From contig CM072345.1 of assembly GCA_036874045.1 (NCBI GenBank), forward strand, positions 5,109,501-5,173,500: a stretch of 64,000 bases of DNA, given 5' to 3'. The position numbers and the translations under genes were made by a program. Of this stretch, positions 4,069 to 64,000 are shown one piece after another (position 1 is the first letter of the stretch; every line of letters starts with the position of its first letter). This DNA comes from Cymodocea nodosa. Taxonomy: Eukaryota; Streptophyta; Magnoliopsida; Alismatales; Cymodoceaceae. The notes under the pieces are model-generated. The model had not been told where the DNA came from. It ran no database searches and was given only the letters and a program-made list of their open reading frames with translations.

Positions 4069-4102
4069 ACTTAAGTAAATCTACCAGATCTCGACACGTG
4101 TC
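4069..4102. promoter_or_regulatory. G-box module, Athila-II LTR L1, copy 1
   Basis: ACTTAAGT (4069-4076), a 16-bp spacer, and GACACGTGTC (4093-4102), then AGTTTAATAATA at 4109-4120. Both boxes are perfect palindromes. The same layout and spacer length occur in the SIRE LTRs. Confidence 0.75.
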
Positions 4103-4207
4103 AACAACAGTTTAATAATAAAAGAAACATTTCAGAGAGTTGCAGGTCTTACTATCCGATGCCCATCTGCAATTTCAGTTAGTTATAGCTAACTCACCGA
4201 AAGTTCA

Positions 4208-4240
4208 CTTAAGTCAAGCATTATGGTTTCGACATGTGTA
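4208..4240. promoter_or_regulatory. G-box module, Athila-II LTR L1, copy 2
   Basis: ACTTAAGT (4208-4215), a 16-bp spacer, and GACATGTGT (4232-4240), then AG and an AATAATA stretch. It lies 139 bp from copy 1. Confidence 0.7.
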
Positions 4241-4567
4241 CTTCTGGAAATAATAAAATATTCTTTTAATGCATAACTGTTCGGCAATTTAAACATAACT
4301 ATCCAATACATGTTCGGTCTGTTAAACATAACTGTCCAAAATATCAGAAAATTCAGATACTTAAGAATTCCACAACCTGCAACTTACTGACAGTTCAGAA
4401 ATGTACTAAATTGACATTAATTCCTTAAAATTAAGCAAATTCTTTAATTAAAGCATATAACAGTGCAATTATAACATAATGGCTTAATTGTCATATGATA
4501 AGCTAAATATTATGCAATTAACCATCATTTAACCGTTAATAATATGCACTTTTTCATTCTAAATACT

Positions 4568-4586
4568 TCCCCCATACCTAAATTTT
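4568..4586 (-). promoter_or_regulatory. Element B polypurine tract
   Basis: On the minus strand a purine-rich AATTTAGGTATGGGGGA tract directly precedes the 3' LTR start. This is the usual plus-strand primer position for Athila elements. Confidence 0.7.
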
Positions 4587-59420: not shown

Positions 59421-60873
59421 TTCCTAAATCTCTTCTCAATTTGATAAACTATTTTTCTTCAAGAGGCTTTGTGAAAATATCTACCAACTACTCATGAGTA
59501 GAAACAAAATTCAACTCAATGTTATCCTTCATAACATTATCTCTCAAAAAATGGTGTCTTATCTCAATATGTTTTGCCCGAGAGTGCAACACAAGGTTCT
59601 TTGACAAACTTATGGCACTATTACTGTCACAATTAATAGGAGTTTTTCCATATGTAATTCCATAATCTTTCATAGTTTGTTTCATCTAAAGAATTTGTGC
59701 ACAACATAGGGCTGCAGTAACATATTCAGCTTCAGTAGTTGATAGGGCAACACAATTTTGCTTCTTACTGAACCACGAAATTAATGAACTACCAAATAGT
59801 TGGCAAGTTCCACTAGTACTCTTTCTATTAGATTTGCATCCAGCATAATCAACATCACTATATCCAATTAGATCCAAACTGCTATCTTTGAAATACATTA
59901 AACCAAAATTTGAAGTTCCTTGTAGGTATTTCATTATCCTTTTAACTACAGATAGGTAAGATTCTTTTGGTTGAGCTTGAAAATAAGCACAGGCACAAAC
60001 ACTGAACATGATATCAGGTCTAGAAGTAGTTAAATAAAGAAGAAAACCTATCATTCCTCTATATTTAGTAATATCAACAGCTGGTCTAGATTCATCTTTA
60101 TCCAATTTAATTGATGAACTCATAGGAGTGCTTGAGGACTTGTAGCTACTCATTCCAAATTTTTCTAAAAGTTGCTTTGTATATTTTTCTTGATATACAA
60201 AAATTCTTTTTTCAACTTGTTTAATCTGCAATCCCAGAAAGAATGTCAACACACCCGTTAGACTCATCTCAAACTGATTTTTCATCTAATCTGCAAACTT
60301 ATTACTTAAATTCTCATTAGTTACTCCAAAAATGATATCATCTACATAAATCTGAACAATTAACAAACCTAGATGATTTTTCTTAAAGAATAAGGTATTG
60401 TCAACCTTACCAATAGAGAAACCATTATCTAATAGAAAGGATTTCAGCCTATCATACCAAGCTCTCGGAGCTTATTTCAAACCATACAAGGCCTTCTTCA
60501 GTTTGAAAACATGCTCAGGAAAATTAGCATCAACAAAACCAAGGGGTTGCCTAACAAATACTTCTTCTTTAATGAAACCATTTAAAAATGCACTTTTAAC
60601 ATCCATTTGATATAGTTTAAAATTCATATGAGCATCAAAAGTTAGAAAAATTCTAATAGATTCTAATCTAGCTACAGGTGCAAAAGTTTCTTCAAAATCT
60701 ATTCCCTCTTGTTGGTTAAACCCTTGGGCTACTAGTCTAGCCTTATTTCTAATTACATGCTCTGATTCATCAGATTTATTCTTAAATATTCATTTAGTAC
60801 CAATAATTGAATGATCTAGAGGTTTAGGAACTAAGTCCCAAACTTCATTTCTTCTAAACTGATTAAGTTCTTC
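59421..60873 (-). pseudogene. Element F reverse transcriptase and RNase H (fossil)
   Basis: Minus strand. RT blocks: a [13 protein letters not shown] motif near 60580-60605, a YGLK(x)APR-type motif near 60465-60490, a YVDD-type box near 60335-60360, and FEMSLTGVLTFFLGLQIKQV at 60214-60273. RNase H: GYSDVDYAGCKSNRKSTSGT near 59805-59870 and AKHIEIRHHFLRDN near 59535-59580. SIRE lineage. Broken. Confidence 0.87.
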
Positions 60874-62436
60874 CTACATGGCACTAATCCAAAATTCATC
60901 ATTTAATGCCTCATCAATGTTTTTAGGTTCTATTTCAGATAGAAAAGCATAGCACTCGGATACATTAATCCTAGATCTTGTTTGCACACCTTTAGAAATA
61001 TCACCAATAATAAACTCTTTAGGGTGTTGAGGCAAGAATTTATGAGTCAAAGGGTTATCATTTCTTTCTTGACCCATGGTACTAGATTCTCCAATATTTG
61101 ATTCATCACATTCATAATCTGAAGTATCAATAATTTCTTTTGAAATATTACTAGGCTTTTCATCAAAATTTATATGCATAGATTCTTCAACAGCCAAAGA
61201 AATTTTATTATAAATTCTATATGCTTTACTTCTTGAAGAATATCCCAAAAATATACCTTCATCAGATTTTGCTTCAAATTTATCTTTATTCTCTTTTATA
61301 TTCAGAATAAAACATTTAGATCCAAAAGCTTTAAAATAATGTACTTTAGGAATTCTTCCCATCCATAGCTCAAAAGGAGTCTTATTCATATCTCTTCTTA
61401 GGGTTACTCTATTTAAAATATAACATGCAGTATTAATTACCTCAGCCCAAAAATAATAAGCAACCTTGTTTTCATTCAGCATAGTTCTAGCCATTTCTTG
61501 AAGAGATCTATTCTTTTTCTCTACAACTCCATTTTGAGAAGGGGCTCTAGGAAAGGCAAATCTATGTTCTATTCCTAGATCTTGGCAAAGTTTTTCCATA
61601 TTTTCATTTTCAAATTCCCCTCTATGATCACTCTTAATTTTCTAAACTTTCAATTACTTTTCATTTTGAATCATATTCAGAAAAATTTTAAACTCCTCAA
61701 ATACTTCACTCTTATGTCTTAGAAATATTACCCAAGTATATCTTGAAAAATCATCAACTAGAACAAATACATATTTCTTACCACCTAAACTTTCTATTCT
61801 AGTAGGGCCAAATAAATCCATGTGAATTAATTCCAAAATTCTTCTAGATATAATTTGCTTTCCTGATTTAAAAGAACTCTTCTTCTGTTTTCCCAATTCA
61901 CATGCATCACAAATTTTATCCTTTCTAAATTTCAAATTGGGTAAACCATCTACTAGGTTATTCTTAGCTAACTTATCTAGCTGCTTCATATGAATATGAC
62001 CTAGTCTACGATGCCATAACCATGCATTGTCCAAATTATTAGCAATTAAATAGGAATCAGCAGAAGAAACATCATTAGGTAAATTTAGAAAACAGACATC
62101 ATTTCTTCTATTAGTAAATTTGATTTCATTAGAATTTTCATCAATAACAAGGCACTTCTTAGATTTAAACAAAACCATATAACCTTTATCTTCTAACTGA
62201 GTAATACTAATTAAATTATGCTCTAACTTTTCAACTAGTAAGACATTATCTATAACTATTTTATCATTTACACAAACAGATCCGATACCAATAATCTTAC
62301 CTTTTTGATCATTGCCAAATCTGACATTTCCTCTATCAGTCTTCTTCAAGTCTTTTAGGACAGATTTATCTCTAGTCATATGCTTTGAAGCACCACTGTC
62401 CATCACGCATCGTGATCTTTTAGTTTTGACCTGCAA
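60874..62436 (-). pseudogene. Element F protease and integrase (fossil)
   Basis: Minus strand. The protease motif VMDSGASKHMTRDKSVL lies near 62355-62405. GAG-pre-integrase has HRRLGHIHMKQLDKLAKNNL near 61955-62015. Integrase has HMDLFGPTR near 61800-61825, FVLVDDFSRYTW near 61730-61770, and PSQNGVVEKKNRSLQEMART near 61480-61540. The C-terminal part runs down to 60874. Typical SIRE. Broken. Confidence 0.87.
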
Positions 62437-63222
62437 GAATAGTCATAATCACATCCTTTGGTACCCATATTTTCTTGGGTCCATTTTTGTCAATGGAGAA
62501 TATTTGAAATCTATTTTGTTTTGAAATCCATGTGTTATTTCGATTAATAGAATTTCTTTTTAACACATAGATAACTTTCTCTTTATTAATTGTTTTCAAA
62601 TATCCATTTCCATAGTCCATTTTATAGCTGTTTGAAAAATTAACGGAAGCATATGTTTTTGGTGGTTCATAGTTAAAACCTATACTAGTTCTATCACCAA
62701 AGACTTTATAACTATTAATAATATTTGTCAATTTTTTATCTCCTTTAGTAAAAGCTCCTAGTTTAAATTTTAATCTACCAATGTCTTGTTCTAATTTTTT
62801 TATATCAGTATTAGAACTAGAATTTTCTACACTGATTTTTAAGTTTTTCATTCAATTTTTTAGTTTCACCTTGTAGCCTTTTGTTTTCTAAAAATTTATC
62901 CTTTAATTCTTTAATAAGTTCTGAATTATATTTTTTAAGTTCAGAAATTTTATCATGCATATCAGAACTATTAGCAACAAATTTATTTTTCTTTAATGTA
63001 GAATTTTTAGTTTTTAATGTAGTAATTTCCTTTCTAACTTAGCAACAATTTTATTACTATTCAATAATTTTCTTTTTAACATAGAATTTTTCAAACTAAC
63101 ATTTTTTAGTTCTTCTAATAATTCATTATAATTATCTTGATTGATATCAGCTTCTTCAGAATCACTATCAAAAATCATTTCCTCAGCTATATAAGAATCA
63201 AAATGTACCTCATTAGTGTTAG
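62437..63222 (-). pseudogene. Element F gag C-terminal tail (fossil)
   Basis: Minus strand. Lys/Glu/Leu-rich, coiled-coil-like sequence leading to the WVPKD end that precedes the protease in SIRE elements. The Gag core and zinc knuckle would lie at higher coordinates and are displaced by SIRE3. Confidence 0.7.
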
Positions 63223-64000
63223 TGTTGAGTATTTTGTTTTGATGATGTGTGCTAAATGAATATAATCATATTTGCTCAATTACTATTGCTTGTGAAAAGA
63301 AATTAAAATCATCAATTAATACAGAAAAAGCTTACTGGCATAAATACTTGTCTGTATTGGATCTGAAGTTAATAACTAGTCATTTCGTTGCATTAATTTC
63401 TCATTTAACTAAACGTTAAGTTAACGTGTGTTTTTATTGAAAAGCATGATATGTTTTAAAGTTATATCTTTTATATCATGAACAGTGCACGTTTAGACAA
63501 CTCGTTAAGTTAGAGTTTTGTTTGTATAGAGCTCACGTGAGAACTCGTTAAGTTAGAGGCTTAAAGGTTAAAATAGGTCACGTGATAACTCATTAAGTTA
63601 GTGAGTAAAAGAAGAGACGAACTCGTTAAGTTAGTGTTATACACGTGGTGAAATTATAAGTTATGAATGTTATATTGTATCACGTGAAGTGCACATGTTT
63701 AACTCATTAAGTTAACATAACTAAACACGTTGAGTTGCTATATTGAACACTAAGGCAACGCGTTAGGTTAGCATTATAAACTTAAGTTGTTATTTTTTGC
63801 ACGTGGTAAAATTCTTATTATAAAAACATTTGTTTATGATTGAATCGGTGAGTTAAAGTTTTTTCGGAGATTTACAGTCGTAACTATCTGAAAGGTAACT
63901 TAAGTCATGTTTTCAGGTCTTGACACGTGTCTCACTAGTTTTATGATATAAAGAGTTTTTCTGTGACTTACAACCGTAACTATCCGAAACTTAAATTGTT
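63223..64000 (+). repeat. SIRE3: start of another SIRE LTR, runs off the window
   Basis: It begins TGTTGAG and follows the SIRE LTR to the window end, with the cassette array (63495-63725) and a G-box module (63898-63931). The flanking 5 bp are GTTAG (63218-63222). It could be a solo LTR, a full plus-strand element, or the 3' LTR of a rearranged copy. Confidence 0.88.
63898..63931. promoter_or_regulatory. G-box module, SIRE3 LTR
   Basis: ACTTAAGT (63898-63905), a 16-bp spacer, and GACACGTGTC (63922-63931). Confidence 0.77.

Follow-up and report, generated by a model that had tools for sequence, protein, structure and literature searches.

The window, a stretch of 64,000 nucleotides of the Cymodocea nodosa genome (assembly GCA_036874045.1, contig CM072345.1, positions 5,109,501 to 5,173,500; contig C17 in the genome searches), contains retrotransposons with long terminal repeats (LTRs) of two superfamilies, SIRE copia elements and OTA-type gypsy elements. 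The LTRs of both carry the same module, in which a first box, ACTTAAGT, is followed after 16 bp by a G-box, GACACGTG. This module is a real, abundant and spacing-constrained unit of the U3 part of the LTR, common to the two superfamilies.

The module and its carriers in the window

A search allowing up to three mismatches recovered all nine modules reported in an earlier note on the window, each with a spacer of 16 bp; shuffled versions of the window contained 0.01 modules on average, and none of 100 shuffles reached nine. The nine sites represent two LTR families and three module positions (gypsy type a, gypsy type b2 and SIRE), and not nine independent events. The SIRE modules are located in the 5′ LTR of element SIRE A (21975–22008, plus strand, one mismatch), in its 3′ LTR (33629–33662, plus strand), in the 3′ and 5′ LTRs of element SIRE B (47795–47828 and 55910–55943, both on the minus strand) and in a SIRE LTR truncated at the end of the window (63898–63931, plus strand), the last four without mismatches. 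The gypsy modules of type a (4069–4102, plus strand; 45992–46025, minus strand) have no mismatches, and those of type b2 have two (4207–4240, plus strand) and one (45854–45887, minus strand). Seven of the nine positions in the earlier note were exact, while both b2 sites begin one base earlier than given there. Its other descriptions agree with the sequence: CATGTG replaces the G-box core in two copies (4207 and 21975), the module is sense to the LTR in SIRE and antisense in gypsy, and the G-box is followed by AG and an AATAATA stretch, reading AGTTTAATAATA in gypsy type a and the SIRE A 3′ LTR and AGTTTTAT in the other four SIRE copies. Both b2 sites end in GTGTA, and the form ACTTAAGT-N16-GACACGTGTC is exact in six of the nine modules. 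The spacer length, described as invariant, is so for this module within the window, but four of the five SIRE LTRs also hold a second pair of ACTTAAGT and CACGTG, 11–12 bp apart (at 21859, 47938, 56053 and 63780).

The assignment of the carriers to two superfamilies, also made in the earlier note, is upheld by domains and gene order. The SIRE copies have the Ty1/copia order, an SH3-like integrase end followed by RVT_2; in the pol pieces of SIRE A (26267–28438, plus strand), these two domains were identified by Pfam and RNase H by its position. The name SIRE is provisional, taken from the letters of the LTR and purine tract and from the extra open reading frame (ORF). SIRE A (12076–34694) is split by a nested gypsy element and ends with a 3′ LTR (32954–34694, plus strand, TGTTGAG...CCTACA) preceded by a purine tract; SIRE B (46754–56618, minus strand) is delimited by the LTR ends of its 3′ LTR (46754–48502) and 5′ LTR (54750–56618). 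The other module LTR is assigned to gypsy because of the element order LTR, gag, reverse transcriptase (RT), integrase (INT) and the RVT_1 and rve domains. This order was found in the fetched loci L034, L039 and L046, and as LTR-gag-RT in L044, where the locus ends; RVT_1, rve and Integrase_H2C2 domains occur in the gypsy loci (RVT_1 and rve in L034 and L039), and for loci L035, L037, L040 and L043 the gypsy label is based solely on the likeness of the LTR. Within the window, gypsy E has the order INT, 3′ LTR, with an integrase piece (5042–6211, minus strand) and an LTR of about 1.93 kb that starts after a purine tract and whose far end is not fixed (2641–4571, minus strand). Gypsy D is represented by the first 1.2 kb of an LTR cut by SIRE B (45527–46748, plus strand), and gypsy F by gag, RT and INT pieces (40523–43917, minus strand). 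Within OTA, the gypsy may belong to Athila, as named in the earlier note, or to Tat: a stretch resembling a primer binding site was seen by eye, and no match to PF03078 was found among the ORFs scanned. In loci L040 and L045, the LTR or linker is preceded by a copia-like RNase H piece. Further carriers are a second SIRE-like copia element (L038, RT 54% identical to that of SIRE) and the L036 type.

Two assignments were rejected. The gypsy LTR could be taken for a copia LTR, since neighbouring stretches match internal SIRE DNA, but the matches are to the linker block described below rather than to pol, and gypsy gag, RT and INT follow the LTR. The probes ATH_RT and ATH_RH, considered as gypsy proteins, derive from a third element, a copia (9665–10924). 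Copia pol of another lineage, 30–38% identical to the SIRE pieces, occupies 8564–10927, and fragments of a second SIRE-like copia element, with an RT identity of 59%, lie at 59446–61680. The gypsy element nested in the SIRE A 5′ LTR (12614–21834) has CpG-poor LTRs, 98.8% identical to each other and devoid of the module. SIRE A is flanked by CCTGT on both sides (12071–12075 and 34695–34699); SIRE B is bordered by CCTGT at one end and by ATTAA at the opposite end (46749–46753, 56619–56623). Halves of one gypsy-type LTR adjoin different SIRE copies, as after rearrangement between them. F-box ORFs were found near gypsy-type LTRs in L033 (2613–3260) and L034 (2622–3740).

Genome-wide abundance and spacing

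The search of the whole genome (374.6 Mb, 28 contigs) found 8,855 exact copies of ACTTAAGT-N16-GACACGTG (4,391 + 4,464), and one of the reversed control. The excess at a spacer of 16, which the earlier note had proposed to look for, is clear: the same exact boxes are found 68 times at spacers 0–15 together and 50 times at spacers 17–46, so that 8,855 of 8,973 exact pairs have the spacer of 16. Most of the 118 other pairs (72) have a spacer of 15 or 17, and minor groups have spacers of 11 (nine sites), 10 (six) and 14 (four). With the GTC end and up to one mismatch, the box pair occurs 13,422 times (control 14). The word GACACGTGTC alone has 6,456 sites (reversed word 90), and 44 of the first 50 listed on contig C1 belong to modules of the one-mismatch count. 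ACTTAAGT paired with the TAAC dyad treated below gives 12,458 matches (control 5); on contig C1, this pair appears already at 42,863, and the first exact module at 2.29 Mb. Of the 8,855 exact modules, four spacer patterns account for 909, 1,753, 2,164 and 1,285, and the remaining 2,744 fall outside these patterns. Tandem module units are often 136–138 bp apart.

Further copies were sought within 700 bp of an exact module, using a model with masked box columns; 124 hits were reduced to 86 distinct core-covered sites, 37 of which are neighbours on contig C1 below 5.3 Mb. In these 37 copies, 289 of 296 letters of the one box and 282 of 296 of the other are kept, and the C and the G of CACGTG are each kept in 32. 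The spacer has no indel in any of the 37, a count favoured by the method, as the model had no spacer gap and any copy in which more than four core columns were gapped was discarded. Comparison of types b1 (n = 8) and b2 (n = 19), which are tandem copies in gypsy LTRs, gave identities of 0.271 in the spacer, close to the 0.28 or so expected by chance from base composition, 0.465 in the right flank and 0.817 in the left flank, versus 0.961 and 0.904 in the boxes. For types a (n = 9) and b2, the values are 0.374, 0.407 and 0.746, with 0.947 and 0.928 in the boxes; for a and b1, the spacer value is 0.547, with 0.986 and 0.969 in the boxes. The earlier note's picture of kept boxes with differing spacer bases is thus reproduced within gypsy, and this comparison indicates that the spacing is constrained, with the boxes held while the b1/b2 spacer drifted to chance.

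Shared sequence outside the boxes

The earlier note regarded the two boxes as all that otherwise unrelated LTRs have in common, and this view is not supported. Flanks of 12 representatives were compared after removal of the 34-bp module, with 200 shuffles. For the right flank of SIRE and seven gypsy-type representatives, none of the shuffles reached the score in six of seven cases, and 14 did so for b2; for the left flank, the number ranged from 0 to 8 across the seven. When one SIRE LTR was aligned to gypsy-type LTRs, ten copies in all, with up to five rows listed per LTR, every one of the ten matched (E 0.001 or better), and neither of two LTR copies without the module did. The best match reached 137 bits; of 200 simulated SIRE LTRs, only four matched at all, the highest at 36.5 bits. 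The block around the module (SIRE LTR 640–800; window 33593–33753, plus strand) aligns in reverse to nine of the ten gypsy-type LTRs, the remaining one being gypsy E. A second block (SIRE LTR 399–584; window 33352–33537, plus strand) keeps the same orientation in at least five gypsy-type LTRs, with up to 76.9% identity over 186 bp, and a third (SIRE LTR 806–898) in at least six. Identities of the shared U3 blocks are about 71–85%, and 87% in one 30-bp piece. The spacer bases, said to differ between the families, are partly alike, with 46–60% identity between SIRE and gypsy compared to about 28% by chance. From the likeness of flanks, spacer and U3 blocks, part of the U3 sequence is common to these LTRs, either by descent or by exchange.

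The earlier note left open whether the module was captured or arose by convergence, and these similarities favour capture. Convergence would mean that both LTR families independently evolved the spaced box pair for one host complex. The opposite orientation in SIRE and gypsy, the minor groups with other spacers, the b2 right flank not clear of the shuffles, and the b1 and b2 copies, which have held boxes, weakly similar right flanks and spacers at chance, are all consistent with it. Against this stand the common U3 blocks and the flank and spacer likeness of SIRE to the other gypsy types, beyond shuffles and chance, and we consider convergence unlikely. Exchange appears to fit better because the cassette aligns between SIRE and gypsy LTRs beyond the boxes.

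The likeness extends to the interior of the elements. A linker block between SIRE pol and the extra ORF (28870–29670, plus strand) is 68–77% like a stretch before gypsy 3′ LTRs, the gypsy match spanning up to 871 bp. The ends of the block look sharp, since the alignment rows begin and stop at the same positions: of 21 gypsy rows, some from overlapping loci, 28869/28870 is the first position in 11 and 29669/29670 the last in 15. The SIRE extra ORF, in two open pieces (30799–32460, plus strand), is a relative of the gypsy extra ORF, pieces of which lie in gypsy F (37349–38256, minus strand). The SIRE B ORF and an ORF of gypsy locus L032 are 32% identical over 171 amino acids (E 2.6e-23), relatives are present in five more loci (L031, L045, L046, L050 and L036), and the window SIRE pieces show 27–40% identity to pieces from gypsy loci. 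Taken together, the shared U3, linker and extra ORF suggest that the SIRE and gypsy lineages exchanged sequence more than once.

VANC proteins, which bind VANDAL motifs, offer an analogy for another scenario, in which a protein encoded by the extra ORF and common to SIRE and gypsy binds the cassette, cis and trans parts having been exchanged together. The ORF similarity and the common linker would suit it. However, the domain scan of the extra ORF found no DNA-binding family, its best result being a sub-threshold match to PF20167 (Transposase_32), a weak label because only one of 14 PF20167 matches in the genome exceeds the cut-off. In addition, the copies examined are in pieces, and the AlphaFold2 model of the domain is too poor for use (mean pLDDT 41). 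One protein search for relatives gave a single match (289 amino acids, on a 1.5-kb contig) and another gave none. This scenario seems very unlikely. A broader version, a transferable self-control kit of copia and gypsy in which the extra-ORF protein would recognise the U3 cassette and keep U3 CpGs unmethylated, so that the superfamilies would cross-activate each other, is a speculation to which we give little credence.

A U3 cassette and known LTR control regions

The module LTRs retain CpG. Observed-to-expected CpG ratios in SIRE are 1.33 in U3, 0.49 in the rest of the LTR, 0.23 in gag, 0.12 in pol and 0.20 in the extra ORF; over the module LTRs, they are 0.53–1.13 versus 0.07–0.23 in the elements' own gag, pol and extra ORF stretches. 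The 11 LTR stretches of the fetched loci have values of 0.53–1.12 and the gypsy module LTR parts of the window 0.62–0.84, with 0.07 in gypsy E pol; the nested gypsy LTRs without the module, a control of a single LTR family, have 0.14 and 0.17, and the whole window 0.38. AGTTA-TAAC dyads number four, three and four in three SIRE LTR copies and two and five in two gypsy copies, with none in either of two LTR copies without the module; the expectation is 0.13–0.21 per LTR, and the largest value of 300 simulations was 2–4. Taking TATA sites as consensus words only, both modules of gypsy D (330 and 468) precede the single TATAAA (830), and the module of the SIRE A 3′ LTR (676) precedes the last one (1217).

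Perhaps the module has no function and spread by neutral hitch-hiking, as part of LTR subrepeats of about 137 bp shuffled between families. The frequent tandem distance of 136–138 bp and the reordering of the shared U3 blocks speak for this, but mere passengers would hardly keep their boxes while the sequence between them drifts to chance, or U3 CpG while coding CpG is lost, and this explanation is unlikely.

The best reading, which we regard as probable, is an enhancer-like U3 cassette that was exchanged and then selected. The cassette would comprise TAAC dyads (GATAGTTA-n-TAAC), ACTTAAGT, the 16 bp and the GACACGTG G-box, all before a candidate TATA box. It would have entered both SIRE and OTA-type gypsy LTRs when U3 sequence was exchanged, the simplest route being recombination between LTRs or template switching, and flanking inverted repeats may have made inversion during the exchange easy. 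Both lineages would have retained it for a protein complex that needs the two boxes at a fixed distance to drive transcription of the element; its members would presumably be bZIP or bHLH factors at the G-box and MYB-like proteins at the TAAC dyads.

Several observations weigh against this reading. Only 21 of the 37 masked-box copies have every one of the 16 box letters exact, copies with indels exist among the spacer counts (0–15 and 17–46), and part of the conservation comes from recent common ancestry, within-type spacer identity being 0.86–0.87. Within b2, the G-box fares no better (0.871) than the spacer (0.865) or the right flank (0.892); such decay would be as expected if CpG was lost after insertion. 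The SIRE linker likewise keeps some CpG (0.57), and three of the seven TATAAA words in the SIRE A 3′ LTR lie upstream of the module. Nor does any single simple transfer account for all the shared blocks, whose order and orientation vary.

LTR control regions are usually compared within one lineage, whereas here thousands of copies in two superfamilies keep a spaced two-box site. Because of this number and the predominance of modules among the listed C1 GACACGTGTC sites, the elements may act on a large scale as a sink for G-box binding, or as a source of it, and a shared activator of unrelated elements becomes a directly testable question.

CACGTG sites of G-box or ABRE (abscisic acid-responsive element) type are bound by bZIP and bHLH factors. 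The second box of the module, with the CACGTG core in a ACACGTGT context, is a candidate site of this type, but it stands inside LTRs, as one of the two boxes in a unit of fixed spacing. For extra ORFs beyond pol in SIRE and OTA elements, Neumann et al. 2019 (PMC6317226) describe great heterogeneity and probably several origins; in contrast, an extra-ORF domain is common to the SIRE and gypsy elements of this genome. The accessible parts of PMC4029996, PMC7264820 and PMC11963269 describe no such cassette, and none common to copia and gypsy LTRs appeared among the matches listed in literature searches by titles and abstract openings, in which subscription journals were thinly covered.

According to PMC5311732, which cites a 2016 study, palindromes in maize Sirevirus LTRs are hotspots of small-RNA mapping. 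The cassette similarly lies in a palindrome-rich regulatory part of the LTR, and the palindromes could act as fold-back structures or targets of host small RNAs instead of binding sites; such a role, tied in that study to Sirevirus families, creates no obvious need for 16 bp between ACTTAAGT and the G-box, which makes it highly improbable as the explanation of the module.

The closest counterparts are the palindromic repeated motifs of Sirevirus LTRs (Bousios et al. 2010, PMC2829016), called Sirevirus-specific and, in the sections available, described as dyad-symmetric, located in the U3 half upstream of the TATA box, forming CpG islands and thought to be regulatory; all but one have a CGG-CCG core, and no partner box at a fixed distance is named there. 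The cassette LTRs resemble them in carrying dyad-symmetric repeats (AGTTA-TAAC) and in the location of the cassette in the CpG-rich upper half of the LTR, before TATA consensus words. The repeated motifs are counted per element, at least eight; the exact dyads here were counted per single LTR, at 2–5 in module LTRs. A difference is that CGG-N6-20-CCG occurs only 0–1 times per LTR copy; in many cassette copies, TTTCGG or CCGAAA appears at a single side, as judged by eye. Moreover, the dyads are paired with ACTTAAGT-16-GACACGTG, and this combination, unlike the Sirevirus-restricted motifs, is also found in gypsy LTRs. The cassette belongs with the palindromic control regions already known in LTRs, as a variant of them and not as a separate kind of system.

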